DNA of 64,000 nucleotides from a virus, in IMG/VR virus record IMGVR_UViG_3300042197_003184, positions 1 through 64,000 of that record. One strand, written 5' to 3'. Position 1 is the stretch's first letter; each line of letters starts with the position of its first letter. Under the pieces are notes generated by a model. It made no database searches. It had not been told where the DNA came from and worked only from the letters and a program-made list of their open reading frames with translations. Positions 1 to 10,688 of the stretch are shown one piece after another. The position numbers were made by a program, and so were the translations under genes.

Positions 1-10
1 ATTTTGTTCG

Positions 11-88
11 TAAGTCGTTGTGGCATAAGCACTTACGACGCGGCGGGCCGGCCACCCTCGCCCTAAGTCATTGGCAGTCAACAACTTA
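11..88. repeat. 78-bp double palindrome, copy 1
   Basis: First of eight copies of an element made of two 25-bp units, each TAAGT-N15-ACTTA. The unit starts are 53 bp apart and a 26-nt GC-rich linker follows the first ACTTACG. Here both units are complete (TAAGT at 11 and 64, ACTTA at 31 and 84) and the linker centre is GGCCGGCC, so the whole element is also one long imperfect palindrome. It lies 12 nt beyond the stop codon of the leftward gene ending at 101. It could act as DNA (paired operators) or as RNA (two hairpins). Confidence 0.85.
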
Positions 89-100
89 GAGCGATTGGCT

Positions 101-607
101 TTATTCGGCCTCAATAGGCTCATCTTCAGTAAAAAACTCACCCATATTATATTCATCCCACAAACGCTTAGGAATCATATCGTGATGGGTATACTCCACA
201 TAATGATCGTCACCATCCTGCCACAATCCACAATACGCCATTCCCGGTTCCCAGTATGTAGCCTCAACCTTGAATCCCAACTCTACCAATCGTTCATACA
301 ATCCAAGAGGAGGACTCCATGCACTATCAAAAGTCATAGTCGCCTGATTGTCCACAACGGTAGGATTCAATCCGTGGGCCTCATTATTATCACTACCTAC
401 GTCCCATTTTGTATTCCAATTATTTACGCACCAATTATACCAATAATCCGGATGGGTGGTATCAGTTATCAACTCACCATTACCGTCCCTAGGTACCGGT
501 AAATAATGGTCACAAACCTTACCTTCCTTATAGGCATGGACAAACTCCATAACCTTAGCCCTATCTTCATGCTCAATAGTCAGATTATTTTGACACCAAT
601 TAGGCAT
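101..607 (-). CDS. Api92-like ferredoxin-fold protein
   Basis: A 168-residue protein beginning MPNWCQNNLTI, the N-terminal signature of the phage/plasmid Api92-like (YubB, DUF1281-type) family, which has a ferredoxin-like domain. Typical family features follow: a Trp-rich middle with WYNWCVNNWNTKWD, and an aromatic/Gly-rich stretch around FDSAWSPP and YWEPGMAYCG. The start at 607 is chosen over an upstream in-frame ATG at 631 because MPNWC is the conserved beginning and AAGGG lies 7 nt before it. It overlaps the end of the upstream nuclease-like gene by 8 nt, so the two are probably translationally coupled. The molecular function of the family is unknown. The family call is from motif recognition only. 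Confidence 0.75.
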   Translation of the reverse strand: MPNWCQNNLTIEHEDRAKVMEFVHAYKEGKVCDHYLPVPRDGNGELITDTTHPDYWYNWCVNNWNTKWDVGSDNNEAHGLNPTVVDNQATMTFDSAWSPPLGLYERLVELGFKVEATYWEPGMAYCGLWQDGDDHYVEYTHHDMIPKRLWDEYNMGEFFTEDEPIEAE

Positions 608-1193
608 AAACAAACCCTTTCTTCTGCACAAGTATACCTTGTTGTTTCAGTTCTGTCAAGAGTCGCTTCCGAGCATACACATTTACAAAGCCATCAAAAG
701 TTTCATTATAGACCAGTTTTTTTGATCTCATATTAGAGTCAAAAGTAATTTGATAGCCGTGTTTTCCCCGTGTATACCCTTCCTTGGTCCACTCTGTTAT
801 CATTTCGCTATCAGTCCATTTGATCGTAATACCGTATGGATTGAGAAAAACGAAAAAGATTACATCAAAACACTCTGGTTTGATTTTATGAAACACATAT
901 TTTGTACGATTGCTTTTTTTATCATAAGGTTGCACAGTTCCCAGTTTTACCTCAACCCTAACATGATTCTCTACCAACAAATCATAATCCCCACTCTCAC
1001 CACAATGGATAACATCAAAACCACGCTCCATCAACTTTTTTTGCAATAACTTTTCAGTATATGTACCCCTATCATGGCTATTGCATAGATTCAGAGCATA
1101 GGCAAACTCATTTTTTTGTATGCTAAACAGGATAGCGTCCAGCATAGACCTTCCGTCCTGCCTAACACAATCAAGGTCTGCTATAGTGAACAT
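600..1193 (-). CDS. PD-(D/E)XK nuclease-like protein
   Basis: A 197-residue protein. Around residues 58-83 it has the layout of a restriction-endonuclease-fold active site: GFDVIHCGESGDYDLL followed about 10 residues later by RVEVKLG, giving the D...ExK triad. A basic C-terminus (ARKRLL, KQQG, KKG) would suit nucleic-acid binding. This suggests a small phage nuclease, but the specific role is not visible. Its promoter is so close (-10 box ending at 1200) that the predicted transcript would begin at or within a few bases of the ATG at 1193. A second ATG at 1145 preceded by GGAAGG could be the real start (181 residues). It is co-transcribed with the Api92-like gene. Confidence 0.55.
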   Translation of the reverse strand: MFTIADLDCVRQDGRSMLDAILFSIQKNEFAYALNLCNSHDRGTYTEKLLQKKLMERGFDVIHCGESGDYDLLVENHVRVEVKLGTVQPYDKKSNRTKYVFHKIKPECFDVIFFVFLNPYGITIKWTDSEMITEWTKEGYTRGKHGYQITFDSNMRSKKLVYNETFDGFVNVYARKRLLTELKQQGILVQKKGFVYA

Positions 1194-1199
1194 AGTGCT

Positions 1200-1227
1200 A
1201 TTCTATCACACTAAAATTTTTTGTCAA
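1200..1227 (-). promoter_or_regulatory. sigma-70-type promoter
   Basis: Leftward TTGACA (1222-1227), 16-bp spacer, TAGAAT (1200-1205). The predicted transcription start falls about at the ATG at 1193, so the mRNA may be leaderless, unlike the other promoters in this arm. Confidence 0.75.
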
Positions 1228-1236
1228 CAGAACCAC

Positions 1237-1282
1237 GCTGACTATTGCCCATCACCGCAAATCCGTAGGATTAGGAAAGACA
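1237..1282 (-). ncRNA. Gene-end hairpin motif, copy A
   Basis: Shares GCTGACTAT-GCCCAT and a 5-bp triloop hairpin with copies at 5472 and 6327. The hairpin at 1260-1272 is AATCC-GTA-GGATT, while the other copies have AAGCC/GGCTT, a compensatory change that supports base pairing. The TAA stop of the leftward gene at 1271 lies in the stem. The strand that acts is uncertain. No U-run follows, so it is not a standard terminator. Confidence 0.6.
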
Positions 1283-1450
1283 ACCAGACTCGCTACAGTC
1301 AATGACTACTTGACCCACCATGGTTCGCTCAAGGAAAATACGCTTTCCATATTCTTTCTCGGCTTTTTGCATAGCAGAGTATTCGGAATATGCTTTGACA
1401 TATCCAACGAGCCTACATTCTCTCCAGACTGCCCACAAGTATTCAGTCAT
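1271..1450 (-). CDS. Small hypothetical phage protein, 59 aa
   Basis: Reads MTEYLWAVWRECRLVGYVKAYSEYSAM and ends in GQVVIDCSESGCLS. Not recognised. It is aromatic-rich with a short strand-helix pattern (a possible 'W-A-V-W-R-E-C' beta strand then a YSEYSAMQKAEKEYGK helix). The start at 1450 is preferred to the upstream ATG at 1492 because it overlaps the stop of the preceding gene by 8 nt, the coupling arrangement used elsewhere in this arm. Its stop codon sits inside the gene-end hairpin. Confidence 0.6.
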   Translation of the reverse strand: MTEYLWAVWRECRLVGYVKAYSEYSAMQKAEKEYGKRIFLERTMVGQVVIDCSESGCLS

Positions 1451-1694
1451 CCTCAGTCTCCGCAAACATATCATCCCATGCCACACTGTCAATACCGGTC
1501 ATGCACACTTCACGCTCATCGGCACTCAGGTACGGAAATGCTACTTGAACCAACTCCCCATTGAGCCAACGATTCATGTCCGCTAACTTGACCTGAACAG
1601 TAAACGGACGACCATCCAAACTTTCGCCCGTCATGGTCAAATCCTGACCGTCTTCACTAACCGTTTTCGTACAGTTCGCCAGAGCATATCTCAT
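1443..1694 (-). CDS. Small hypothetical phage protein, 83 aa
   Basis: Not recognised. An 83-residue acidic protein (…ADEREVCMTGIDSVAWDDMFAETEDD) with an alternating beta-type N-terminal half (DLTMTGESLDGRPFTVQVKLADMNRWLNGE). GGAGA lies 6 nt before the ATG, and a strong promoter lies 24 nt upstream of it. First gene of a two-gene operon with the 59-residue gene. Confidence 0.7.
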   Translation of the reverse strand: MRYALANCTKTVSEDGQDLTMTGESLDGRPFTVQVKLADMNRWLNGELVQVAFPYLSADEREVCMTGIDSVAWDDMFAETEDD

Positions 1695-1717
1695 AGTTTT
1701 TCTCCTCTTATCCCCTC

Positions 1718-1746
1718 ATTCTACTGCTCTATTATCGGCTTGTCAA
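1718..1746 (-). promoter_or_regulatory. sigma-70-type promoter
   Basis: Leftward TTGACA (1741-1746), 17-bp spacer containing CCGATAATA, TAGAAT (1718-1723). Transcription would start about 16-18 nt before the ATG at 1694. Confidence 0.85.
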
Positions 1747-1777
1747 TAGAGAAAACTTTAGCAGAAAAGATTTGTTG

Positions 1778-1855
1778 TAAAGTGTTGGTGGGTAAAGACT
1801 TACGTCAAACGGGGCCGCGAGCCCTCGCCCTAAGTGCTGCCGTAGCAACAACTTA
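1778..1855. repeat. 78-bp double palindrome, copy 2
   Basis: Units at 1778-1802 (left arm degenerate, TAAAG) and 1831-1855 (perfect TAAGT/ACTTA, extended by CCC/GGG). The linker contains GGGGCCGCGAGCCCTC and is nearly identical to copy 3. It sits 25 nt beyond the stop of the membrane-protein gene. Confidence 0.85.
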
Positions 1856-1880
1856 GGGTTAGGGTTTCGAGAAAGAGAGA

Positions 1881-2294
1881 TCAGCAGAAGAAACTAGCCA
1901 CCTTCGGACTCTTGAACAGAGTACCAGCAAGGATAGGCTTTCGGCAATTCACTGCACGTTCACAGTAGAACTGTCGAATTTTACCATCCACAGTCTGACA
2001 CGTTACCAGATGATTAGTACGCTTGAACTGAGGATCGTTTCTACGATAGTTACTACGTCGGTTCATCAGTTTGATCCAAGTAGAATCCAGCGTAGCAACA
2101 GGCTCGATAACCTTAGCCAGATACCTTTCTGGCTCACCATTCAACGGTTGGAGATATTCAAAGTTGAAGACATCACCAACCTTAGCATTCGACAACGAAG
2201 TCCTAGAACCACCATAGATGGCATAGAACAGAAAGCCAGCAAAGCCAGCAGCAACAACAGCAAACAAACCACCAAGCACAATCCAATCAGTCAT
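1881..2294 (-). CDS. Small membrane-anchored protein
   Basis: 137 residues. Residues 4-27 (WIVLGGLFAVVAAGFAGFLF) form one clear N-terminal transmembrane helix. The rest is a soluble domain, beta-rich at first (KVGDVFNFEYLQPLNGEPERYLAKVIEPV) and then basic (MNRRSNYRRNDPQFKR). It probably sits in the inner membrane with the C-terminal domain in the cytoplasm (positive-inside tail). AAAGGG lies 6 nt before the ATG. Family not recognised. A role in the host envelope is possible but unsupported. Confidence 0.7.
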   Translation of the reverse strand: MTDWIVLGGLFAVVAAGFAGFLFYAIYGGSRTSLSNAKVGDVFNFEYLQPLNGEPERYLAKVIEPVATLDSTWIKLMNRRSNYRRNDPQFKRTNHLVTCQTVDGKIRQFYCERAVNCRKPILAGTLFKSPKVASFFC

Positions 2295-2332
2295 ACTAAA
2301 CCCTTTCGTTTGAAAATCCTAAATCTACAACC

Positions 2333-2360
2333 AGTCTACCACAATTTTTCTGTCTGTCAA
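2333..2360 (-). promoter_or_regulatory. sigma-70-type promoter inside upstream stop
   Basis: Leftward TTGACA (2355-2360), 16-bp spacer, TAGACT (2333-2338). The -35 box overlaps the TGA stop (2357-2359) of the preceding gene, so the promoter starts inside the neighbour's reading frame. Confidence 0.8.
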
Positions 2361-2683
2361 GGGGAGATCACCATTCCGCTATAGAACGGATATTCGTTAC
2401 GACTACCATGGGCGGTAGGCACCTGCACATACCATTCATGATTACGCTGGCGAACCTTGAACGGGCTATACTGGTTGATACGATCCTTAGTGGTGGCGGT
2501 CTGCCATCCCCCATTGCTCAGTGTATACGTACCATCCTCGTGGATGCGAACCACACACGTACTATGCAGAGTGATTCCGACCGAGCCATCTGGCAGGATT
2601 TCCGCATAGGTATTGTTTCCAACCTTGCGACGAGTACGATAAGAAATACCCTTAACCATCTTAACCGCTTCAGCGTGTGTCAT
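2357..2683 (-). CDS. Hypothetical phage protein, 108 aa
   Basis: 108 residues. A predominantly beta protein with a compact central segment VRIHEDGTYTLSNGGWQTATTKDRINQY, then W-Y-V-Q-V-P and PFYSGM. GWQT-TTKDRIN strings of this kind recur in small hypothetical proteins of large phages, and I know no function for them. AAAGGG lies 8 nt before the ATG, with a strong promoter at 2708-2736. It belongs to the same leftward series as the membrane-protein gene downstream, which has its own promoter. Confidence 0.7.
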   Translation of the reverse strand: MTHAEAVKMVKGISYRTRRKVGNNTYAEILPDGSVGITLHSTCVVRIHEDGTYTLSNGGWQTATTKDRINQYSPFKVRQRNHEWYVQVPTAHGSRNEYPFYSGMVISP

Positions 2684-2707
2684 ATTCTTTTCCCTTTCGT
2701 TTCACTA

Positions 2708-2736
2708 AGTCTACATCTATTATCGGCACCTGTCAA
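2708..2736 (-). promoter_or_regulatory. sigma-70-type promoter
   Basis: Leftward TTGACA (2731-2736), 17-bp spacer with GCCGATAATAGA, TAGACT (2708-2713). Confidence 0.85.
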
Positions 2737-2767
2737 GAGAAATCTTTAGAAAAATCTTTTTGTGTCG

Positions 2768-2845
2768 TAAAGTATTGAGGGATAAAGACTTACGTCAAAC
2801 GGGGCCGCGAGCCCTCACCCTAAGTGCTTTCGCACAAAGGGTTTA
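2768..2845. repeat. 78-bp double palindrome, copy 3
   Basis: Units at 2768-2792 and 2821-2845. The linker is almost the same as in copy 2. The right unit pairs TAAGT with GTTTA, allowing G-U pairs on the + strand only. It begins 9 nt beyond the stop of the gene ending at 2855. Confidence 0.85.
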
Positions 2846-2854
2846 GGGCAAGAT

Positions 2855-3085
2855 TCACTCAAAGTCTACAAACACCACCTGAGCATAGCCGCGAGGCTTT
2901 AGGGTCAAACTATCTCCCCAGTTCTCAGTTTCGCAACGAACCCCGGTCAATCCGGCCAGTTCCTTGGCACGACGCACAATGCTACGTTGAGATTCTGGAT
3001 TCTTTGGCAGAAACTCATAACGATTCACCCAGCCATAATTAGCCTCACCACCAAACGTATCAGTCTGAGTCACAACACACTTCAT
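2855..3085 (-). CDS. Small hypothetical phage protein, 76 aa
   Basis: Not recognised. 76 residues: a beta N-terminus (MKCVVTQTDTFGGEANYGWVNRYEFLP), a helix (SQRSIVRRAKELAGL) and a beta C-terminus ending in GYAQVVFVDFE. AAGGA lies 8 nt before the ATG. No promoter of the common type directly precedes it. It probably reads on from the two mini-genes upstream (3148-3343). Confidence 0.65.
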   Translation of the reverse strand: MKCVVTQTDTFGGEANYGWVNRYEFLPKNPESQRSIVRRAKELAGLTGVRCETENWGDSLTLKPRGYAQVVFVDFE

Positions 3086-3147
3086 CTTACTTTCCTTTCT
3101 TTTCGTTCATTTGAACCACAATTCGAACAATTCGAGGAATACAATCT

Positions 3148-3258
3148 TCAGTCTTCATCGTTCACCTCTTGGGTTGGAGCAAATACTAGGTCGCTTACCA
3201 GATACGATCCAATTATACCACAAACCACACCCAGAGTAAAGACCACATAAGGCTCCAT
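3148..3258 (-). CDS. 36-residue membrane mini-protein
   Basis: A short reading frame coding for 36 residues. Residues 4-28 (YVVFTLGVVCGIIGSYLVSD) form one transmembrane helix, followed by an acidic tail ending EVNDED. A strong AAGGAGG lies 5 nt upstream of the ATG at 3258. The stop of the preceding mini-gene overlaps this Shine-Dalgarno sequence (TAAGGAGG), so the two are coupled. Too small for family assignment. The strong ribosome site and helix make it credible. Confidence 0.55.
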   Translation of the reverse strand: MEPYVVFTLGVVCGIIGSYLVSDLVFAPTQEVNDED

Positions 3259-3268
3259 TTTTCCCTCC

Positions 3269-3343
3269 TTAGATCAGAATAGCCATCACACACCCAGCCA
3301 CAAAACAAACCCCAAATAAAATCATCTCCTTAGGCCCAATCAT
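3269..3343 (-). CDS. 24-residue hydrophobic peptide
   Basis: Reads MIGPKEMILFGVCFVAGCVMAILI, a single membrane-spanning helix. AAGGAG lies 7 nt before the ATG at 3343. The coding capacity is small and it is predicted only from the ribosome site, the coupled downstream mini-gene and its composition. A possible holin-like or small membrane-modulator peptide, but there is no direct evidence. Confidence 0.4.
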   Translation of the reverse strand: MIGPKEMILFGVCFVAGCVMAILI

Positions 3344-3424
3344 ATCCGATCTCCTTGTGGTTGTCAATCCCTATATCTATTATCGGCCAAATCCACCCAT
3401 AAGATCAAATAATTTTTCTTTCTG

Positions 3425-3502
3425 CAAAACGTTGTGAGATAAGGACTTAGGAACAATTTGTGCGGCCCGCCTCGCCCTAAGTTCTTTAGGGACAAGGCTT
3501 TA
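3425..3502. repeat. 78-bp double palindrome, copy 4
   Basis: Units at 3425-3449 (left arm decayed to CAAAA) and 3478-3502 (TAAGT with CTTTA). The 53-bp phase and the 26-nt linker (GCGGCCCGCC centre) are kept although the outer arms have drifted. It lies only 2 nt beyond the stop of the gene ending at 3505. Confidence 0.75.
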
Positions 3503-3504
3503 GG

Positions 3505-3711
3505 TTAAGAAAGTACGTTGTCTGTACTAAATGAACACACGTTCAGTCCACTAGCCGCAGTGATAATATCAAACATTTTTCCGATATGCTCCTGTCGTTC
3601 CAGCGGTGTGCTCATATCATGCTCAGGAATATCTAGTACATACTCTTGAGTCAGGGGAATTTCTTCGAACTTTTCATTCTCTACTTTGATGTCATAGAAT
3701 CGGTGCAACAT
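3505..3711 (-). CDS. Small hypothetical phage protein, 68 aa
   Basis: Not recognised. 68 residues, mainly helical (TPLERQEHIGKMFDIITAASGL), starting MLHRFYDIKVENEKFEEIP. Its ATG overlaps the TAA of the previous gene (TAATG), so it is coupled. Third gene of a three-gene operon headed by the very acidic protein at 4109. Confidence 0.65.
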   Translation of the reverse strand: MLHRFYDIKVENEKFEEIPLTQEYVLDIPEHDMSTPLERQEHIGKMFDIITAASGLNVCSFSTDNVLS

Positions 3712-4109
3712 TAGAAACTCTCCGTAAAGTCAGCACTAATACCCATCTGTTCCCGAACGTCCGGGTCAGTAAGTGTATCCTCATCCATCATAAAGTCAAG
3801 GTCATCGAAAAAGATTTCCAACTCAGGCTCACCCTCATAAATCATGATTTTTGCAAAATCGTACAACATGAAATATGTCGTAGCCTGCACCCACGACTGA
3901 ACCACATTAGAATGAAGTTCGATTGTGTGCCGATTATTATAGACATACTCTATAGCGGAGCACTTAGTATTATCGCTCATCGTGCTCCATACCGGAATAC
4001 GATCATTGTACTTATTCAGTTCATACGACAATTCATTATGGTTCTTCCAGTCTTTATAATTCTCATACGTTGCTTCGATCATACCCTGTGCTATATTACG
4101 ATAGTACAT
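3711..4109 (-). CDS. Hypothetical acidic phage protein, 132 aa
   Basis: 132 residues. A helical, aromatic-rich N-terminal half (AQGMIEATYENYKDWKNHNELSY) and an acidic C-terminal segment (EPELEIFFDDLDFMMDEDTLTDPD). Not recognised. The ATG overlaps the TGA of the preceding gene (TGATG). Its place between two acidic proteins in one transcript suggests that the three work together. Confidence 0.65.
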   Translation of the reverse strand: MYYRNIAQGMIEATYENYKDWKNHNELSYELNKYNDRIPVWSTMSDNTKCSAIEYVYNNRHTIELHSNVVQSWVQATTYFMLYDFAKIMIYEGEPELEIFFDDLDFMMDEDTLTDPDVREQMGISADFTESF

Positions 4110-4366
4110 CAGTAGTCCTCCCCATAGTAGCCGTAATCCTCATCGGTTCCAAATCCAGCATCTCGCATGGCACTGTCGAAATCCCCATCCATGCTATCAT
4201 CGACATCATTGTCCCAAACATCATCTTCCTCGTTTTCATCATAATCCTCATCCCAACTATCAAATTCATTCCAAGCGTTCTCGTCGTGGAAATCGTTGTA
4301 ATCGTCGTAGTTCATATCGTTTTCGTAAGAGTTATCGGGATCGAACAGGGGGTCAGGGTGACTCAT
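4109..4366 (-). CDS. Extremely acidic 85-aa protein, DNA-mimic candidate
   Basis: 85 residues with 25 Asp and 9 Glu (40 percent acidic), no Lys and one Arg, giving a net charge near -33. Aromatic residues (Y, F, W) are spread among the acidic runs, as in DNA-mimic proteins such as Ocr or ArdA, though no sequence kinship to these is claimed. First gene of its operon, with AAAGGA 7 nt before the ATG and a strong promoter at 4396-4423. An anti-restriction or transcription-factor-sequestering role is an inference from composition alone. It could also be a disordered chaperone-type protein. Confidence 0.7.
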   Translation of the reverse strand: MSHPDPLFDPDNSYENDMNYDDYNDFHDENAWNEFDSWDEDYDENEEDDVWDNDVDDSMDGDFDSAMRDAGFGTDEDYGYYGEDY

Positions 4367-4395
4367 GTGCTATTCCTTTCTCTAGTGTTATCGAC

Positions 4396-4423
4396 ATTCT
4401 ACACATAGAACTTGAGTTGTCAA
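4396..4423 (-). promoter_or_regulatory. sigma-70-type promoter
   Basis: Leftward TTGACA (4418-4423), 16-bp spacer, TAGAAT (4396-4401). It drives the three-gene acidic-protein operon. Confidence 0.85.
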
Positions 4424-4453
4424 GCAAAAAAACACAAAAATAATTTCGTTTCG

Positions 4454-4531
4454 TAAACTGTTGATACGTAACGACTTACGACGAGCCGGGCCGCGGCGCC
4501 TCGCTCTAAGTTCTTTAGTAGCAAGGCTTTG
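4454..4531. repeat. 78-bp double palindrome, copy 5
   Basis: Units at 4454-4478 (TAAAC/ACTTA) and 4507-4531 (TAAGT/CTTTG). The linker is strongly GC-rich (GAGCCGGGCCGCGGCGCCTC) and itself palindromic. It begins 3 nt beyond the stop of the gene ending at 4535. Confidence 0.8.
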
Positions 4532-4534
4532 CGT

Positions 4535-4834
4535 TCAATCTCCAAACGGGTTGTCGTCACCGTAACTTACGTATCCCACAGCCTCGTCCGCATGGAAGTC
4601 TTCGCGGTAATTATCTGACATAAAAACAACATCGGGTTCGATCTCGTCGCTCACCCCCACAACATCGGCCCAATCGTAGAAATCCGTTTGGATATTAGGA
4701 TCGTCAATCGGCTCGATCATGCCGTCGTCCACCATCTCGGCCAGAATCCGGTTAACATCATCAAAATCGTTCAGCATCATCTTCTCCTTGTGAAGTTCAC
4801 CAACGAACGCCATCATACTGGGAAAGTGATTCAT
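4535..4834 (-). CDS. Hypothetical acidic phage protein, 99 aa
   Basis: 99 residues from MNHFPSMMAFVGELHKEKMM, with an acidic C-terminal half (EPIDDPNIQTDFYDWADVVGVSDEIEPD and so on). Not recognised. The ATG at 4834 is chosen rather than an upstream in-frame TTG at 4858: it lies 8 nt past the stop of the preceding gene, and TTAGG precedes it. Co-transcribed with the 87-residue gene upstream. Confidence 0.6.
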   Translation of the reverse strand: MNHFPSMMAFVGELHKEKMMLNDFDDVNRILAEMVDDGMIEPIDDPNIQTDFYDWADVVGVSDEIEPDVVFMSDNYREDFHADEAVGYVSYGDDNPFGD

Positions 4835-4842
4835 GTCAACAC

Positions 4843-5106
4843 CTAAATTTGAGCCCAAGCCCTAAAACTTTGAGCAGAGGAACAGAACGCCATATCGTCC
4901 GAATCTCCACCGTAACCTTTGATTGTTTGAGCATACCAGATATATCCGCCCATCTCCCCCAACACTTCACGAAACCACCCGCTACCATCTTTTTTCGCGT
5001 AGGCTTCACCAACAAAAACCTTTGCTCTACTATTGAGCCAAATAATATCCCCGGTTTTCGTACCCAACATCGCCATAGCCTTTTGAACTTCCGATTTCGT
5101 AGACAT
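4843..5106 (-). CDS. Small hypothetical phage protein, 87 aa
   Basis: 87 residues: helix (TKSEVQKAMAMLG), then a beta-rich core (DIIWLNSRAKVFVGEAYAKKDGSGWFREV) with several Trp. Not recognised. AAGGAG lies 7 nt before the ATG. The promoter at 5127-5155 drives it together with the downstream 99-residue gene. Confidence 0.65.
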   Translation of the reverse strand: MSTKSEVQKAMAMLGTKTGDIIWLNSRAKVFVGEAYAKKDGSGWFREVLGEMGGYIWYAQTIKGYGGDSDDMAFCSSAQSFRAWAQI

Positions 5107-5126
5107 ACCTTGCTCCTTATATCGTC

Positions 5127-5155
5127 ATTCTACGCCTATAAAATCTACTTGTCAA
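5127..5155 (-). promoter_or_regulatory. sigma-70-type promoter inside upstream gene end
   Basis: Leftward TTGACA (5150-5155), 17-bp spacer, TAGAAT (5127-5132). The -35 box codes for the Ile-Asp-Lys end of the preceding 57-residue gene. The same overlap is seen at 2355-2360. Confidence 0.85.
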
Positions 5156-5318
5156 TAGTCTTTTGAAAAACAGTATCCAAATAAATCTCTCTATTCGTCA
5201 CAACCCACCCATATTCCGCTTCTGGAGTATAAACCCCAACATACAGTTTTCCACCATCCACACCCTCAAACCCCACACCATATCCTACCATACTAGCCAT
5301 CAAAAGTATACTGAACAT
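5145..5318 (-). CDS. Small hypothetical phage protein, 57 aa
   Basis: A short frame of 57 residues, MFSILLMASMVGYGVGFEGVDGG onward, ending DTVFQKTIDK. The hydrophobic N-terminus could be a signal or membrane segment. The rest is beta-like (KLYVGVYTPEAEYGWVVTNREIY). AAGGAG lies 8 nt before the ATG, and a TATAAT lies just upstream of this ribosome site. Its last codons contain the -35 box of the next operon. Not recognised, but the coding signals are good. Confidence 0.55.
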   Translation of the reverse strand: MFSILLMASMVGYGVGFEGVDGGKLYVGVYTPEAEYGWVVTNREIYLDTVFQKTIDK

Positions 5319-5384
5319 CCTTTTTCTCCTTAGATATTATATCGGCCAACCCCACCAATATCTTCACTTAAAAATCACAGAATA

Positions 5385-5462
5385 TAAACCCCTATCCTGC
5401 AACAACTTACGTTAAACGGGGCCGCGAGATTTTGACCTAAGTCCTTATGGGTCAATGACTTA
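5385..5462. repeat. 78-bp double palindrome, copy 6
   Basis: Units at 5385-5409 (outer arm decayed to TAAAC) and 5438-5462 (TAAGT/ACTTA intact). The linker shares TTAAACGGGGCCGCGAG with copies 2 and 3 but ends in ATTTTGACC. It is directly followed by gene-end hairpin copy B. Confidence 0.8.
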
Positions 5463-5471
5463 CGCTGACTA

Positions 5472-5510
5472 GCTGACTATCGCCATCAAGCCGGAGGCTT
5501 AGGTGAAACA
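5472..5510 (-). ncRNA. Gene-end hairpin motif, copy B
   Basis: GCTGACTAT-CGCCAT, then the hairpin AAGCC-GGA-GGCTT (5488-5500). GCTGACTA occurs twice here (5464 and 5472). It lies 4 nt beyond the TGA of the leftward gene ending at 5515 and abuts double palindrome copy 6. Confidence 0.6.
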
Positions 5511-5514
5511 ATGT

Positions 5515-5901
5515 TCATCCATCACCCCTCCATGAGAAGGGGCTGATCTCCTCGCCATGAGACATGATAGCGGCATACTGTTCGGCCAGAGCCTCGACAC
5601 GCTCACGACTACCCCGTTTCCCGACCTTGATAATCATCGTATCCTCACCCCCCACAATTCGGGGATCGGCCTTCTCTGCCTTGCTCTTGCCCAATCGCCG
5701 CAATGCCTTGCGATTGAACTTCATAACCTTTTCGGTTACAAGGTATCTCTTATGGCCATCCACCCCATAGACATAGAAAGCGTCTTCGCCTTCTATCGCC
5801 CTATCGTCCGGGATCTCAACCAGATCGACCGTCGCCATACCAAGGAAACACATACGGGCTTGAATCTTGGCGTTTTCGATGATAGCGTACTTGGTTTTCA
5901 T
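5515..5901 (-). CDS. Hypothetical basic phage protein, 128 aa
   Basis: 128 residues. A beta-rich N-terminal half (IIENAKIQARMCFLGMATVDLVEI…YLVTEKVMKF) followed by a Lys/Arg-rich middle (NRKALRRLGKSKAEK) and a C-terminal helix (SRERVEALAEQYAAIM). Not recognised. The basic stretch could bind nucleic acid. A purine-rich AAAGAGAGA, not a strict Shine-Dalgarno sequence, precedes the ATG, as for several genes in this half of the arm. Downstream gene of the operon starting at 6137. Confidence 0.65.
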   Translation of the reverse strand: MKTKYAIIENAKIQARMCFLGMATVDLVEIPDDRAIEGEDAFYVYGVDGHKRYLVTEKVMKFNRKALRRLGKSKAEKADPRIVGGEDTMIIKVGKRGSRERVEALAEQYAAIMSHGEEISPFSWRGDG

Positions 5902-5948
5902 AGTTCTCTCTTTCTGTGTGTCAAAGGATACCGGTTTCGGTCAGACTA

Positions 5949-6137
5949 TCAACCCCCACAATCGAGGGAGGACAGATACTCTTGATTGTAGAAAACTACA
6001 TCCTCAAGATCCTCAATCTGACGATAGATTTGCGACCTAACGCTAGACGGCATACCATCATCCAGCATATCACGAAGATCGGTAATCTTCCGCATAGCCC
6101 AACTCGTTTCGTTCATTACTTTCTGTCGCTCGGTCAT
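5949..6137 (-). CDS. Small helical phage protein, 62 aa
   Basis: 62 residues, almost entirely helical with heptad-like spacing (WAMRKITDLRDMLDDGM, SQIYRQIEDLEDVVFYNQEYL), so probably a coiled coil. Not recognised. An AAAGAGAGA leader precedes the ATG, and the promoter is at 6162-6189. Confidence 0.65.
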   Translation of the reverse strand: MTERQKVMNETSWAMRKITDLRDMLDDGMPSSVRSQIYRQIEDLEDVVFYNQEYLSSLDCGG

Positions 6138-6161
6138 CTTATTCTCTCTTTCTTTTCTCTT

Positions 6162-6189
6162 ATTCTACATATAGTTATCGTCGCGTCAA
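6162..6189 (-). promoter_or_regulatory. sigma-70-type promoter
   Basis: Leftward TTGACG (6184-6189), 16-bp spacer with GACGATAACTATATG, TAGAAT (6162-6167). An AT-rich tract upstream (6190-6221) could be an UP element. Confidence 0.8.
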
Positions 6190-6221
6190 TAAAAAAAAAT
6201 GAGGAAAAAGAAAAATATTTT

Positions 6222-6238
6222 TTGGTACAGTATTTGCT
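6222..6238 (+). promoter_or_regulatory. sigma-54-like -24/-12 motif, copy 1
   Basis: TTGGTACAGTATTTGCT, reading rightward. GG (6224-6225) and GC (6236-6237) are 12 bp apart, as in sigma-54 promoters. The predicted +1 is 6249, exactly the first base of double palindrome copy 7. It points away from the leftward genes. Confidence 0.45.
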
Positions 6239-6248
6239 ATGATCGTTG

Positions 6249-6326
6249 TAAGTTGTTGATACATAAGCACTTACGTCAAATTCGCGGGCGCCTTGTTGTT
6301 GTAAGTCTTTATGTAGTAAGGGTTTA
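6249..6326. repeat. 78-bp double palindrome, copy 7
   Basis: Units at 6249-6273 (TAAGT/ACTTA) and 6302-6326 (TAAGT/GTTTA). Linker TCAAATTCGCGGGCGCC is shared with copy 8. A sigma-54-like motif lies upstream on the + strand, and gene-end hairpin copy C follows directly. Confidence 0.85.
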
Positions 6327-6372
6327 CGCTGACTATGCCCATATTGCCAAGCCGTAGGCTTAGCTGATACAG
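6327..6372 (-). ncRNA. Gene-end hairpin motif, copy C
   Basis: CGCTGACTATGCCCAT, then the hairpin AAGCC-GTA-GGCTT (6349-6361). The TAA stop of the gene ending at 6360 lies in the stem, as in copy A. Confidence 0.6.
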
Positions 6373-6536
6373 TGTTTCCACCTGAACAGGAGTTCAGTAG
6401 CAGCAGCCCGTATGCCTTCCATCAGCATTTCACGAATAGCCCCCTCCGAAGTGGGGAGTCTCCATTGTGCTTCGTGCAACCATAGTTGAATTGTGCTAGT
6501 GTTCATTTGTTCAAATGTTGGAGAGTAATAGTTCAT
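6360..6536 (-). CDS. Small hypothetical phage protein, 58 aa
   Basis: 58 residues from MNYYSPTFEQMNTSTIQLWL. Mostly helical (AIREMLMEGIRAAATELLFRW). Not recognised. The start at 6536, with AAAGGT 5 nt before it, is preferred to the in-frame ATG at 6590, which would lie deep in the preceding gene. It follows the 66-residue gene after 10 nt and is co-transcribed with it. Confidence 0.6.
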   Translation of the reverse strand: MNYYSPTFEQMNTSTIQLWLHEAQWRLPTSEGAIREMLMEGIRAAATELLFRWKHCIS

Positions 6537-6546
6537 ACTTGACCTT

Positions 6547-6747
6547 TCAGTTAGCGGCTTCCATAACATCGAACGACACACACTTGTCAAGATAGATCGA
6601 CCTATACCCTTGCTCGCACTTGACAGTCAACAGGACACGCTCAGTCTCGTGACCTTCACCGGGAGGCATGGAGCGAACCTTGACCACTTCGCCATTCACG
6701 ATTTCGCCATTGTTGTATTCCGCAAACACAAAGTCACCAACATTCAT
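6547..6747 (-). CDS. Small beta-barrel-like phage protein, 66 aa
   Basis: 66 residues with the pattern of a small SH3-like or OB-like barrel: MNVGDFVFAEYNNGEIVNGEVVKVRSM…RVLLTVKCEQGYRSIYLDKCVSFDV. Such domains often bind nucleic acid or protein. The family is not recognised. Own promoter at 6773-6800 and an AAAGAGAGA-type leader. Confidence 0.65.
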   Translation of the reverse strand: MNVGDFVFAEYNNGEIVNGEVVKVRSMPPGEGHETERVLLTVKCEQGYRSIYLDKCVSFDVMEAAN

Positions 6748-6772
6748 TTTCTTTCTCTCTTTCTTTGCTCTT

Positions 6773-6800
6773 ATTCTACATATTCATATCGTCAAGTCAA
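6773..6800 (-). promoter_or_regulatory. sigma-70-type promoter
   Basis: Leftward TTGACT (6795-6800), 16-bp spacer with GACGATATGAATATG, TAGAAT (6773-6778). Confidence 0.8.
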
Positions 6801-6810
6801 CAAAAAAAAT

Positions 6811-7056
6811 TCAGTAGTACAACCAATCCTTCAGAATATTGCCATTAGCATCAACTTCGATATACTCGCCCTCATCCCCACAAGGGAAAAAGCCTTCAAT
6901 GTATCCGTTCAATCCCTTATGGGCAATGTCGTTTGCCAGAGCTTCGGCGAGCAACTCTCCACCGATGGTAGCAACCCCAACTAACGTATCGGGAGAAGTG
7001 CTATCCGCACCATACAGGAACTCGACCAATTCGTCTCGACTGTTTAGCGTAACCAT
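6811..7056 (-). CDS. Small hypothetical phage protein, 81 aa
   Basis: 81 residues: helix (SRDELVEFLYGADS), Gly-rich beta-alpha region (LVGVATIGGELLAEALANDIAHKGLNGYIEGF) and an acidic C-terminus. Not recognised. AGAAGGAT precedes the ATG. The stop is 11 bp upstream of the next operon's -35 box, so packing is very tight. Confidence 0.65.
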   Translation of the reverse strand: MVTLNSRDELVEFLYGADSTSPDTLVGVATIGGELLAEALANDIAHKGLNGYIEGFFPCGDEGEYIEVDANGNILKDWLYY

Positions 7057-7079
7057 TTTTCTTATCCTTCTTTTCTCTT

Positions 7080-7107
7080 AGTCTACATAATATTATCGGC
7101 TTGTCAA
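7080..7107 (-). promoter_or_regulatory. sigma-70-type promoter
   Basis: Leftward TTGACA (7102-7107), 16-bp spacer with AGCCGATAATATTATG, TAGACT (7080-7085). Confidence 0.85.
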
Positions 7108-7138
7108 ACAAAAAAAAATAGAAAAAAGAAAAATATTT

Positions 7139-7155
7139 TTGGCATAGTATTTGCT
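7139..7155 (+). promoter_or_regulatory. sigma-54-like -24/-12 motif, copy 2
   Basis: TTGGCATAGTATTTGCT with GG at 7141-7142 and GC at 7153-7154. The predicted +1 is 7166, the first base of double palindrome copy 8. A short GC hairpin and seven Ts (7211-7217) downstream could end an RNA of about 52 nt. Confidence 0.5.
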
Positions 7156-7165
7156 ATATGCGTCG

Positions 7166-7243
7166 TAAGTCGTTATATATCAAGTACTTACGTCAAATTC
7201 GCGGGCGCGATTTTTTTCTAACTCCTTATGCCACAAGGATTTA
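7166..7243. repeat. 78-bp double palindrome, copy 8
   Basis: Units at 7166-7190 (TAAGT/ACTTA) and 7219-7243 (TAACT/ATTTA). The linker has TCGCGGGCGCGA followed by TTTTTTT (7211-7217), terminator-like on the + strand. Geometry is identical to the other copies. Confidence 0.85.
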
Positions 7244-7260
7244 CGTATAGTAGTAGTTTA

Positions 7261-7281
7261 GGGGGGTGCGTCTAACCCCCC
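7261..7281. terminator. G6/C6 hairpin after small gene
   Basis: GGGGGG, 9-nt loop, CCCCCC: a strong 6-bp GC stem 35 nt beyond the stop at 7317, flanked by TTTAGG on both sides. There is no U-run on either strand. It may block polymerase or protect the mRNA 3' end. Not a canonical terminator. Confidence 0.4.
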
Positions 7282-7316
7282 GGTTTAGGTGGTACACCCC
7301 CACTCTAGGTAGTGTA

Positions 7317-7517
7317 CTAGCGTACCCTGTGCATGTATACCCTACTGATACCGCACGATGACACCCCCCAACCGGGGCAGTTCCAAATCCAATCCGGCAA
7401 CCCCTTGGATTGGGGGTGGAAGTATCCGTCAACGTGTAACGTATCGGGATGATTCGGAACCTTTTGAACGTTTAGATTGTATTTTTCCAACGCTACGATC
7501 ATTTGAGATACGCTCAT
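7317..7517 (-). CDS. Small hypothetical phage protein, 66 aa
   Basis: 66 residues: MSVSQMIVALEKYNLNVQKVPNHPDTLHVDGYF then a Trp/Cys/Gly-rich half (DWIWNCPGWGVSSCG). Not recognised. AGGAA lies 5 nt before the ATG. No promoter of the common type precedes it, so it is probably the second gene of the operon starting at 7781. An overlapping frame at 7241-7432 was rejected in its favour. Confidence 0.55.
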   Translation of the reverse strand: MSVSQMIVALEKYNLNVQKVPNHPDTLHVDGYFHPQSKGLPDWIWNCPGWGVSSCGISRVYMHRVR

Positions 7518-7574
7518 GATTTTCCTTTTTTTGATGAAAAACTTTTTTACCCTTGAATCGGCCGGTCTATCCCC

Positions 7575-7781
7575 TTACCGGGGGGTAGCCCCGTTTGCTT
7601 TTGCATACCGATACATGGCACGTTCATCTACCATAAACCTTCGAACACCGTTCAAATCCTTGAAATTCCAATGGTAGGTTAGAACGTCTGACTTGACCAT
7701 CCATCGGGCTTCAACGTCCGAAGTCTTTTTCAGCGTATAACCCATTTTATTCAACTCTTTTGCAATCGTTTGGCTGTTCAT
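7575..7781 (-). CDS. Small hypothetical phage protein, 68 aa
   Basis: 68 residues: MNSQTIAKELNKMGYTLKKT, then W-M-V-K and VLTYHWNFKDLNGVRRFMVDERAMYRYAKANG. A basic alpha/beta protein, not recognised. The frame stays open to 8021, but that extension is only a readthrough of the intergenic region. The start at 7781 lies just after the promoter at 7807-7834 with the usual AAAGAGAGA leader. Confidence 0.6.
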   Translation of the reverse strand: MNSQTIAKELNKMGYTLKKTSDVEARWMVKSDVLTYHWNFKDLNGVRRFMVDERAMYRYAKANGATPR

Positions 7782-7806
7782 TTCTTTTCTCTCTTTCTTT
7801 TCACTC

Positions 7807-7834
7807 ATTCTACATACTATATCGTCAACGTCAA
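7807..7834 (-). promoter_or_regulatory. sigma-70-type promoter
   Basis: Leftward TTGACG (7829-7834), 16-bp spacer with TTGACGATATAGTATG, TAGAAT (7807-7812). Confidence 0.8.
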
Positions 7835-7865
7835 GAAAAAAAATTAGGAAAAATCTTTTTCTTTT

Positions 7866-7882
7866 TTGGCATGGGTTTTGCT
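7866..7882 (+). promoter_or_regulatory. sigma-54-like -24/-12 motif, copy 3
   Basis: TTGGCATGGGTTTTGCT, GG 7868-7869 and GC 7880-7881. No double palindrome follows, but GGATTAGGTGAGACTTTCC just downstream resembles part of the gene-end hairpin family. Confidence 0.4.
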
Positions 7883-7917
7883 GCCCGAGGGGATTAGGTG
7901 AGACTTTCCTATTTTGC

Positions 7918-8121
7918 CTAAATCCTCCATTCGAGAAATTCGAGAGTAAACACCATTCCGGGATACTTATTTCCGATATACTTTTCCGCAGTAGACTTAC
8001 GATTATCGGTAGCCGAAACACACTGGACTACCTTACCATCGGAAATCACTTTCCAAATTCGACGACGACGAATCCGAGGAAGGCTACCGATGAAACTGTT
8101 TACGCTGATTGAAGGTTGCAT
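7918..8121 (-). CDS. Small hypothetical basic protein, 67 aa
   Basis: 67 residues starting MQPSISVNSFIGSLPRIRRRRIWKVISDGKVVQCVSATDNRKSTAEKYIGNKYPG. The RIRRRR cluster is followed by a beta-hairpin/helix pattern similar to small AP2-like or Arc-like DNA-binding folds, but no family can be named. Own promoter at 8161-8188 and a long purine leader. Confidence 0.6.
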   Translation of the reverse strand: MQPSISVNSFIGSLPRIRRRRIWKVISDGKVVQCVSATDNRKSTAEKYIGNKYPGMVFTLEFLEWRI

Positions 8122-8160
8122 TTTCTTTTTCTCTCTTTCTTTCTTACTCTTTATATCGAC

Positions 8161-8188
8161 ATTCTACATTCAAAACTTTACTTGTCAA
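8161..8188 (-). promoter_or_regulatory. sigma-70-type promoter
   Basis: Leftward TTGACA (8183-8188), 16-bp spacer, TAGAAT (8161-8166). Confidence 0.85.
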
Positions 8189-8204
8189 GAAAAGAAAATC
8201 AGAA

Positions 8205-8414
8205 TCATGAAACCCCCATCCAATCGGCATTTTCGATACAATAATCGTAAAACATATCGTTCAACACTTCAACATAGTTGGAATCCGTCAACCGACGACG
8301 CTGCATGGTGGATTCACACTCTGCAAAAAACTTTCCGTTTTCTTCCACAATCTTGCAATTGTGCCATTCGTCGCCGAAAATTTCCACCATCGTCAAATGA
8401 TACGGGCTAACCAT
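8205..8414 (-). CDS. Small hypothetical phage protein, 69 aa
   Basis: 69 residues: MVSPYHLTMVEIFGDEWHNCKIVEENGKFFAECESTMQRRRLTDSNY and an acidic helical end (VEVLNDMFYDYCIENADW). Not recognised. The frame is open back to 8648, but the start at 8414 is chosen because it follows the promoter at 8446-8473 and the purine-rich leader. The upstream part reads through repeated intergenic sequence. Confidence 0.6.
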   Translation of the reverse strand: MVSPYHLTMVEIFGDEWHNCKIVEENGKFFAECESTMQRRRLTDSNYVEVLNDMFYDYCIENADWMGVS

Positions 8415-8473: not shown

Positions 8474-8504
8474 GAAAAAAAATCAGAAAAAAAGAAAAAA
8501 TTTT

Positions 8505-8521
8505 TTGGCACAGGATTTGCT
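8505..8521 (+). promoter_or_regulatory. sigma-54-like -24/-12 motif, copy 4
   Basis: TTGGCACAGGATTTGCT, closest of the four to the sigma-54 consensus (TGGCAC…TTGCT). GG 8507-8508, GC 8519-8520. The predicted +1 (8532) falls inside a hairpin with a U-run, so an RNA from here would be tiny or the terminator serves other rightward transcription. Confidence 0.4.
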
Positions 8522-9080: not shown

Positions 9081-10688
9081 TTATCTCCTTACTATTCCAT
9101 TCCATCCTACGCTAGTTTGTCCAGAGATAGGATCGAATACTACTATTTGTATATTATTATTTCCTCTCTTAAGCCAATTACGATTCAAAGATATATTGAA
9201 TCCATGATACCCTGAACCAACTACAGGAACCAGGTTCTGTTTGTATTTATTAGCTAACTGCCCAGTTACCACCCTTCCGTTTATAACTACCCTCACTACC
9301 ACAGGCGAAGATCCCGATCTTTCGCTAAAGGCCCATCCGGACACCCTGTTTTTACTTAAAAACCCAACTCTTACCACAGGGGGTGCGATTTTGATAGTCG
9401 TAGTTCCTATGGTGTTCCACAACCCGCTCTGAAGGTCTCTGGCCTTAATTTCTATAATATGGTCGCCAATAACCAAACCTCCTAAATTAAACCTCCAAAC
9501 TCCGCCGACCCCAGTAACAAGATCCCCCTTTTCTGAGCCATTTATAATTAATTTTACGCTTATTGGACTATTACTAAAATCAGGATCATTAGCCCACCCA
9601 CCAACGGTTTTGAGATCTTGAAAAGTTATAGCTCCTATCGGAACGTGATTACTATCATAAGGTATATTCAAAACATTACAAACCGCTGCTGCTATATTCA
9701 GTTTGCCACCAGAAGCTACCTTACCAAATAATTCTGGTATTCTATCGACCGAAGAAAAAATAGCTTCTTTCACTTCTGATATAGATAGGCTCGGTTTAAT
9801 AGCTTTTAATAAAGCAACCGCCCCAGCAACCTGAGGCGCTGCCATACTAGTTCCGCTCATATATCCATAGTTGTTGTATGGGATCGTAGAGTATATTATG
9901 GATCCTGGAGCAGCTAAATCTACAGTAGTAGCCCCATAGTTAGAAAAACCCACCAAGCCATTAGAGTAACTACTCAAAGCTCCCACACTAATAATATTAG
10001 GACTATCATAACAGCTAGGATATCTTAAAGTAATATCATTATCGCTTCCATTATTACCCGCAGCTACGGTTAATATCACGCCATCATTATTTAATTGATT
10101 GATCGCTCCATACAACATATTACTAAAACCAGTCCCCCCACCCCAACTAGCATTTGCGACAACGACATTAACCCCATAAGTGTTTTTCATCATACTTATG
10201 TAACTCATAGCATTAGCAGCCGCCCCAGTATATCCCATCCCCTGTTCGTCTGTAAATTTTAATGTCATCAAACTAACATTCCAATTAATTCCCGCAACCC
10301 CCCAAGCATTGTTCCCTTCTGCTCCAATTACGCCAGCAATATGAGTGCCGTGTCCATATCTATCTTGAATATCATTATTGTTAGAATAAAAATTCCATCC
10401 ATGAATATCGTCTATATATCCATTGCCTTCATTGTCTATACCATCTCCGGCTATTTCTCCACTATTTGTCCATAGGTTACCTATCAGGTCCTGATGATTC
10501 AAATCTATCCCACTATCTATAATAGCGACAACAACATCTCTTGATCCCCTAGAATAATCCCAAGCCCCAAAAGCGCTCATATTACGAAGAGCCCATTGAT
10601 TATTAATTAGCGGATCATTAGGAGCTGTTGATAATAGTTTTTTATTTTCTAAATGTTCTATGCCTAACGAGAAAACTTTTTTGTTCAT
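9081..10688 (-). CDS. S8 subtilisin-like serine protease, exported
   Basis: 535 residues. The catalytic triad is complete: Asp58 (AIIDSG), His113 (YGHGTHIAG) and Ser281 (MSGTSMAAP), with the oxyanion Asn in AAGNNG near 212. The catalytic domain spans about 30-330, followed by roughly 190 residues in two beta domains (ITFQDLKTVGGWANDP… and VVRVGFLSKNRVSGWAF…) that look like related repeats. Residues 8-20 (LGIEHLENKKLLS) resemble the LExRxLLS N-terminal motif of planctomycete exported proteins. There is no obvious inhibitory propeptide. It may process virion or host-surface proteins, or help release. It shares an operon with the GNA1 gene. AAGGAA lies 7 nt before the ATG. Confidence 0.9.
   Translation of the reverse strand: MNKKVFSLGIEHLENKKLLSTAPNDPLINNQWALRNMSAFGAWDYSRGSRDVVVAIIDSGIDLNHQDLIGNLWTNSGEIAGDGIDNEGNGYIDDIHGWNFYSNNNDIQDRYGHGTHIAGVIGAEGNNAWGVAGINWNVSLMTLKFTDEQGMGYTGAAANAMSYISMMKNTYGVNVVVANASWGGGTGFSNMLYGAINQLNNDGVILTVAAGNNGSDNDITLRYPSCYDSPNIISVGALSSYSNGLVGFSNYGATTVDLAAPGSIIYSTIPYNNYGYMSGTSMAAPQVAGAVALLKAIKPSLSISEVKEAIFSSVDRIPELFGKVASGGKLNIAAAVCNVLNIPYDSNHVPIGAITFQDLKTVGGWANDPDFSNSPISVKLIINGSEKGDLVTGVGGVWRFNLGGLVIGDHIIEIKARDLQSGLWNTIGTTTIKIAPPVVRVGFLSKNRVSGWAFSERSGSSPVVVRVVINGRVVTGQLANKYKQNLVPVVGSGYHGFNISLNRNWLKRGNNNIQIVVFDPISGQTSVGWNGIVRR

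Follow-up and report, generated by a model that had tools for sequence, protein, structure and literature searches.

The p4 binding regions of phage phi29 each consist of two adjacent imperfect inverted repeats whose arms lie 15 bp apart (CTTTTT-15-AAAATG), and the single control region of phi29 comprises four sites (PMC3100819). Dimers of p4 bind one face of the helix, and p4 acts via the alpha subunit of RNA polymerase with a sign that depends on the promoter (PMC3100819). Here we describe a 78-bp double palindrome, built from TAAGT/ACTTA units, which occurs eight times between small genes in the virus record IMGVR_UViG_3300042197_003184. The stretch that was analysed, here called the window, is the first 64 kb of this 139,964-bp record. 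Our analysis indicates that the elements are likely to be double-stranded, phase-locked regulatory sites before strong early promoters in a large family of uncultured phages. An earlier note on this DNA knew of no described phage element with this geometry, but the p4 regions are a close geometric analogue. Like a p4 region, the element has two adjacent inverted repeats (here TAAGT-15-ACTTA) on one helical face upstream of a promoter. Unlike phi29, there are 6–18 copies per array, the arms are unrelated, the core is GC-only and the two units stand at exactly 53 bp. The p4 consensus was not matched by the arms TAAGT/ACTTA, and no p4 family was found among the proteins scanned, which covered part of the genes only.

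The stoperators of L5-type mycobacteriophages are asymmetric 13-mers bound by a monomer, and they are intergenic and locked in orientation (PMC9283540). The element shares with them the many copies in short intergenic spaces oriented with transcription (the stoperator regulator is phage-specific), but it is a 78-bp double dyad in a fixed promoter phase and not a single asymmetric 13-bp site. Phi29 p4 is the nearest working analogue and the stoperators are the nearest distributional one. The element is filed under neither, because it has their layout but not the features of sequence and protein that define them. SPBRE of phage SPbeta, in the part of the source that was available, is a single 15-bp motif bound by MrpR, a repressor with a tyrosine-recombinase fold (PMC10516654). 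SPBRE is likewise a multi-copy intergenic operator of a large phage that was first seen as an in silico repeat; unlike the present element, it has neither a double geometry nor promoter phasing in that part of the source (PMC10516654). Motif length and layout differ between the two, and weak integrase-like matches were found in two of the 20 genomes, fold-level relatives not being part of that search.

The PeSL elements of T4-type phages, attributed to Arbiol et al. in 2010 (cited in PMC4177764), are reportedly mobile regulatory cassettes made of a promoter plus a stem-loop. They are said to recur as palindromic intergenic modules next to promoters, in an early region that is hyper-variable and where small genes are shuffled, and the present arrays resemble them in this. 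The element differs in that it is a rigid double site placed upstream of a promoter, and nothing points to selection on a hairpin. Promoter association is present here, the half of the element nearer the upstream gene (the A half) is linked to that gene, and the stem-loop is unsupported. Integron attC sites lie on the 3' side of genes and have four arms, nested as dyads about a central spacer. The element also has nested dyads around a centre at the 3' side of genes, but its spacing is fixed, several genes lie in each interval and no integrase exceeded the cut-off in 20 genomes. The attC outer boxes, which we take to be RYYYAAC/GTTRRRY, are not matched by the element profile.

Geometry and distribution of the element

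Each element consists of two dyads (an arm of about 11 bp, a 5-bp spacer and a second 11-bp arm) that stand head to head around a GC-only octamer, and the distance from dyad to dyad is 53 bp, or five helical turns. With the spacers simplified, the oriented profile is CGTAAGTCGTTG-N5-ATAAGNACTTACGTCAAA-N3-GGCCGGCC-N3-CTNGCCCTAAGTCCTTA-N5-CAAGGNTTTACG. Information is concentrated in the arms and the GC core, and the spacer sequence varies from copy to copy. The two sides are unlike, ACTTACGTCAAA on the B side and CCCTAAGT on the A side, and the element therefore has a direction. Among the 327 copies of relatives, 205 have a core octamer made up entirely of G and C (0.05% by chance) and only 40 have a self-complementary one, so it is the composition of the core that is kept and not its palindromy.

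All eight copies lie within the first 7.2 kb of the record, and a scan of its remaining 76 kb found none. ACTTACG-N22-32-TAAGT occurs six times, against 0.10 expected from shuffled sequence. The eight starts given by the earlier note were all correct (Table 1), and its unit spacing of 53 bp is exact in every copy. It had also described two TAAGT-N15-ACTTA units per copy; this geometry holds, whereas the perfect form is found in only 6 of the 16 units. Its linker is GC-rich as stated but, given the few self-complementary cores, not palindromic. Conserved inner arms and drifting outer arms are confirmed by the profile of relatives, with ACTTAGG in copy 4 and TAACT in copy 8 as exceptions in the window. 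A position 2–75 nt 3' of a leftward small gene applies to most copies, the gene beside copy 7 being uncertain. The interpretation as a whole was thus partly borne out; promoters, locked orientation, helical phasing and the exchange of palindromes were absent from it.

Among the matches listed in a pattern scan of viral contigs, many contigs had several copies. In an unbiased set of loci, fetched by the terminase gene alone, the gap between the inner arms was 24 nt in 30 copies and 25 nt in 3, with no other value from 10 to 44 nt, which shows that the spacing is conserved in related phages. Searching the relatives' loci with a symmetric weight matrix gave 327 distinct copies, compared with none on reversed sequence, and the array regions of twelve more phages brought the number to 398. 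Each phage has one small-gene block with the elements, and the remainder of genomes G012, G013, G005 and G018 held no copies. Two copies from one phage resemble each other no more than copies from different phages do, and origin by recent duplication was rejected on this ground.

In 84,980 species genomes, multi-copy matches were found only in three short contigs (L213, L217 and L227) in proteobacterial metagenome-assembled genomes, which are probably misbinned phage. No chromosome among them held a multi-copy set, although the pattern detects some of the copies only, and the sampled genomes may not include the host. Window positions 1–7300 showed no DNA similarity to isolated phages, and the best terminase match in the phage collection searched was about 24% identical. 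Contigs G000 and G012, whose terminases are about 80% identical, open with an identical 120 bp that includes copy 1 (window 1–120; L262 1–120). The probable cause of this common start is a break of the assembly within a cassette that was exchanged recently.

Position relative to genes and promoters

Within loci, 256 of 269 copies agree in orientation, and in 13 arrays the orientation follows the direction of the genes, which were called by a simple codon-usage script and not by a published gene finder. Read in the gene sense, a stop codon is followed by the A side, the B side, the promoter and the next gene; the median gap from stop codon to element is 17 nt, and there are several genes per inter-element interval. 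Of 270 non-redundant copies searched with the pattern TTGAC-N16-18-TANNNT within 130 nt of the element, 148 had a promoter on the B side and 2 had one on the A side. The promoters are of the type TTGACA/TAGAAT plus an UP element. The logo between the element and the -35 box is AT-rich and resembles what we take to be the UP-element consensus. In the window, a promoter match was looked for on the left side of copy 6 and none was found.

Distances from the element to the -35 box peak at 19–21, 27–33 and 39–44 bp (about 20, 30.5 and 41 bp) and are separated by near-empty gaps. The Rayleigh p at 10.5 bp is about 1e-15, and none of 5000 smoothed nulls reached the observed phasing value; the pairs in these tests are not fully independent, and we judge the gaps too clean for this to have much effect. 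The best single period over all distances is about 11.4 bp, lengthened by a broad tail. When promoters of orthologous genes were compared between phages, the distance differed by 0–3 bp in 174 pairs, by 8–11 bp in 17 and by 4–7 bp in none, which indicates that helical phase is under selection. An off-phase class at 54–60 bp and beyond is partly accounted for by an inserted GCAA...RTRCCA motif, which 14 of the 36 copies beyond 47 bp contain and none of the 112 at shorter distances.

Pairing and inner-arm dialects

In 211 copies below 75% identity, observed pairing was compared with a column-shuffled expectation. Stem pairs 6-20 and 10-16 pair less than by chance (z -5.0 and -5.7), and the highest mutual information is between neighbouring bases. 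Compensatory stem changes, as in an intrinsic terminator or a structured RNA, were sought in these copies and not found, and Rfam gave no match above the gathering score. Among the pairs of a long hairpin, 3-76, 21-58 and 22-57 show clear co-variation. Positions 21/22 and 57/58 are also those that define an inner-arm dialect, ACTTA versus GTTTA/CTTTA, the latter in L032, L051, L054, L063, L065, L066 and L076. The dialect is common to all copies of a phage, so the co-variation of 21-58 and 22-57 represents a switch at the level of the phage and not stem repair. These patterns suit a trans-acting DNA-binding factor and favour a double-stranded protein-binding site over a hairpin. The two hairpins or one long hairpin suggested in the earlier note thus find no support, pairing covariation being absent or negative outside the dialect positions. 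Its idea of a dimer-of-dimers site on one helical face fared better, and is supported by the rigid spacing in hundreds of copies, arm variation like that of a DNA motif and the promoter phase lock.

Exchange of palindromes and candidate binders

Phage G009 has no TAAGT element. At the equivalent positions before early promoters it has CTGCCAAAATGGCAG-N14-CTGCCAAAATGGCAG with a GC-only core, that is, CTGCC-N5-GGCAG twice with a 14-nt GC-rich linker. Seventeen such modules were found in this phage, mostly before genes whose orthologues elsewhere carry TAAGT elements, and most of them are 22–25 bp from the -35 box. CTGCC modules occur in L301 and L302 (phage G009), L082, L081, L044 and L039. Across several contigs the linker of the CTGCCAAAATGGCAG module is 14 nt in 18 of 21 copies, and its A-rich loop mostly has the same direction relative to the genes. 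G011 and G017 have hybrids in which the GC core stands between one TAAGT unit and a different palindrome, and in G011 one half can also be replaced by C-rich/G-rich hairpins. Element pairs with only the upstream gene in common are alike in the A half and far less alike past the core (family-mean excess 0.111 versus 0.044, 95% confidence interval of the difference 0.009–0.13), and this contrast suggests exchange in the middle of the element. Tentatively, the element may be a chassis of exchangeable specificity (palindrome, GC-only octamer, palindrome, phase-locked promoter), in which the geometry is kept, the palindrome and presumably the regulator are replaced at nearly all sites, and the GC core would serve as a structural or joining element at half swaps.

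Array gene families were listed with their presence in G009, G011 and G017. Apart from short, spurious or fast-evolving open reading frames, only an acidic protein of 85–96 aa is shared by all TAAGT phages and missing from G009; it is also found in G011. A very acidic 85-aa protein encoded at window 4109–4366, present in 12 of the 13 arrays compared, is reminiscent of DNA-mimic inhibitors. DNA-binding candidates conserved in both palindrome types are a sigma-like protein (13430), a D5-like protein (14101) and a helix-turn-helix protein (12984). The helix-turn-helix protein, which the earlier note had named as a possible binder, is not an obvious partner because it is conserved in phages without the TAAGT palindrome; as specificity factors, both it and the D5-like protein were rejected, being conserved whatever the palindrome type. 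A tyrosine recombinase as partner was not supported either (none of 20 genomes over the cut-off, two weak matches). The binding factor may be fast-evolving, or a host protein.

Other features of the window

Table 1. Elements, promoters and small genes at the start of the window; -, leftward.
Feature	Position	Strand	Gap to gene 3' end (nt)	Remarks
Copy 1	11..88	-	12	Units 11-35 and 64-88, GC core about 46-53
Copy 2	1778..1855	-	25	-35 box of next leftward promoter 31 nt downstream
Copy 3	2768..2845	-	9	-35 box 31 nt downstream
Copy 4	3425..3502	-	2	Inner arm ACTTAGG
Copy 5	4454..4531	-	3	-35 box 30 nt downstream
Copy 6	5385..5462	.	52	Left outer arm degenerate; sequence alone orients it the opposite way
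Copy 7	6249..6326	-	about 33	-35 box 59 nt downstream; GCAAAT-N-TGCCAA-like extra motif between
Copy 8	7166..7243	-	73	Array end; TAACT inner arm, atypical AT-rich right linker; 58 nt upstream of -35 box, extra motif between
Promoter TTGACA-N17-TAGAAT	1718..1746	-		Served by copy 2
Promoter TTGACA-N17-TAGACT	2708..2736	-		Served by copy 3
Promoter-like TTGACA-N17-TATGAT	3339..3367	-		Left of copy 4, weaker match
Promoter TTGACA-N16-TAGAAT	4396..4423	-		Served by copy 5
Promoter TTGACG-N16-TAGAAT	6162..6189	-		Served by copy 7
Promoter TTGACA-N16-TAGACT	7080..7107	-		Served by copy 8
Small leftward genes	101..8410	-		Mostly 50-200 aa, unknown function, punctuated by elements

The motif TTTGGYAYNNNNNTTGC is found beside array-end elements (window 6221–6237 and 7138–7154) and in two element-free gaps (7865–7881 and 8504–8520). 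It has a GG-N10-GC spacing like that of sigma-54 promoters and is also seen as inverted pairs. Among relatives it stands beside 60 of 270 (one count per match), often ending 14–15 nt from the element. Read as a sigma-54 promoter, TTGGCAY-N5-TTGC fits in spacing; the motif also serves as a replacement half-site. Another intergenic repeat, GCTGACTA...TAGG, lies at window 1237–1275 and 5464–5503, at the 3' ends of other small-gene units. In the gene sense it reads CCTAATCC-TNC-GGATT...TAGTCAGC, and similar sequence occurs in L301 and L082.

A subtilisin-like protease (window 9081–10688) has the N-terminal stretch LEHLENKKLLS, which presumably recalls secreted proteins of planctomycetes, and adjoins a phage-borne glmS (10774–12585). 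Together they are a possible hint at the host. The structural region contains a single open frame of 5,733 codons (32301–49502), very large for a phage protein.

Discussion

We propose that a sequence-specific protein, probably a dimer of dimers, would bind both dyads on one face of the helix. From there it would influence the RNA polymerase of the following promoter, and the helical face would be the same each time. The position of the UP element and the phasing suggest that contact would most likely be made via the C-terminal domain of the alpha subunit on the intervening UP element. By analogy with phi29 p4, damping or switch-off of the near-consensus promoters after takeover seems slightly likelier than activation. 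The element would also separate neighbouring transcription units, because it fills the gap after each gene.

Several points weigh against a phase-locked regulatory site. Under the strict pattern, a promoter match within 130 nt is lacking for about 45% of copies, and the phasing could partly reflect changes of whole subsites in the UP element. In the eight genomes compared, no gene has the distribution limited to TAAGT phages that is expected of a binder. Activation would be surprising, because the promoters already look strong, and the sequence does not allow activation, repression and an insulating side effect to be told apart. A terminator or a roadblock would also be well placed directly behind stop codons. 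Such a boundary element, either a stoperator-like protein roadblock or a bidirectional terminator that stops readthrough into the next promoter, seems rather unlikely to us. The short distance after the stop codon, the orientation locked to transcription and the replacement of one half by other palindromes in G011 and G017, or by hairpins in G011, are consistent with it. On the other side, a pure terminator has no need to stay in helical phase with the promoter downstream of it, the TAAGT units are not directly followed by a U-tract, and covariation is either lacking or negative. A roadblock and promoter control could both hold. Sites of a host regulator borrowed by the phage, with palindromes that reflect the hosts, are a variant of the phase-locked regulatory site, and their probability overlaps with it; we regard this variant as unlikely. 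It agrees with the finding that no phage gene tracks the palindrome type, but no multi-copy chromosomal set was seen in the species genomes, with the same limits of pattern and sampling, and hybrids within a single phage would call for several factors of the host.

We consider it highly improbable that the elements act as hairpins, two short or one long, of structured RNA or single-stranded DNA. Palindromic units and a GC core at which folding could start speak for it, but co-varying pairs 21-58 and 22-57 coincide with the dialect positions, several stem positions pair below expectation and Rfam holds no match. There is equally little to recommend paired recombination sites, of an integron attC-like or Xer/dif-like kind, that shuffle gene cassettes. 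Arms of about 11 bp around a variable 5-bp centre do resemble tyrosine-recombinase sites, the A half travels with the upstream gene and similarity falls in the middle of the element. Against this, the 20 genomes gave only two weak tyrosine-recombinase matches below the cut-off, neighbouring elements are separated by several genes, the spacer is not the same from copy to copy, and copies of one phage resemble each other no more closely than those of different phages. Recombination would also leave the promoter phase lock unexplained.

As phase-locked regulatory sites, the elements would represent an apparently undescribed system of early-gene control in a large phage group without a close isolated relative in the collection searched. 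Promoter phasing allows a polymerase contact to be inferred from sequence alone. The many tiny genes of the arrays are candidates for early host-takeover functions, and they can be found because they have a control site in common. The swap from TAAGT to CTGCC at the same genes is a natural experiment on the replacement of operators in a whole regulon. If the exchangeable chassis is real, it would give phages a new means of switching regulatory identity while their genes stay unchanged.

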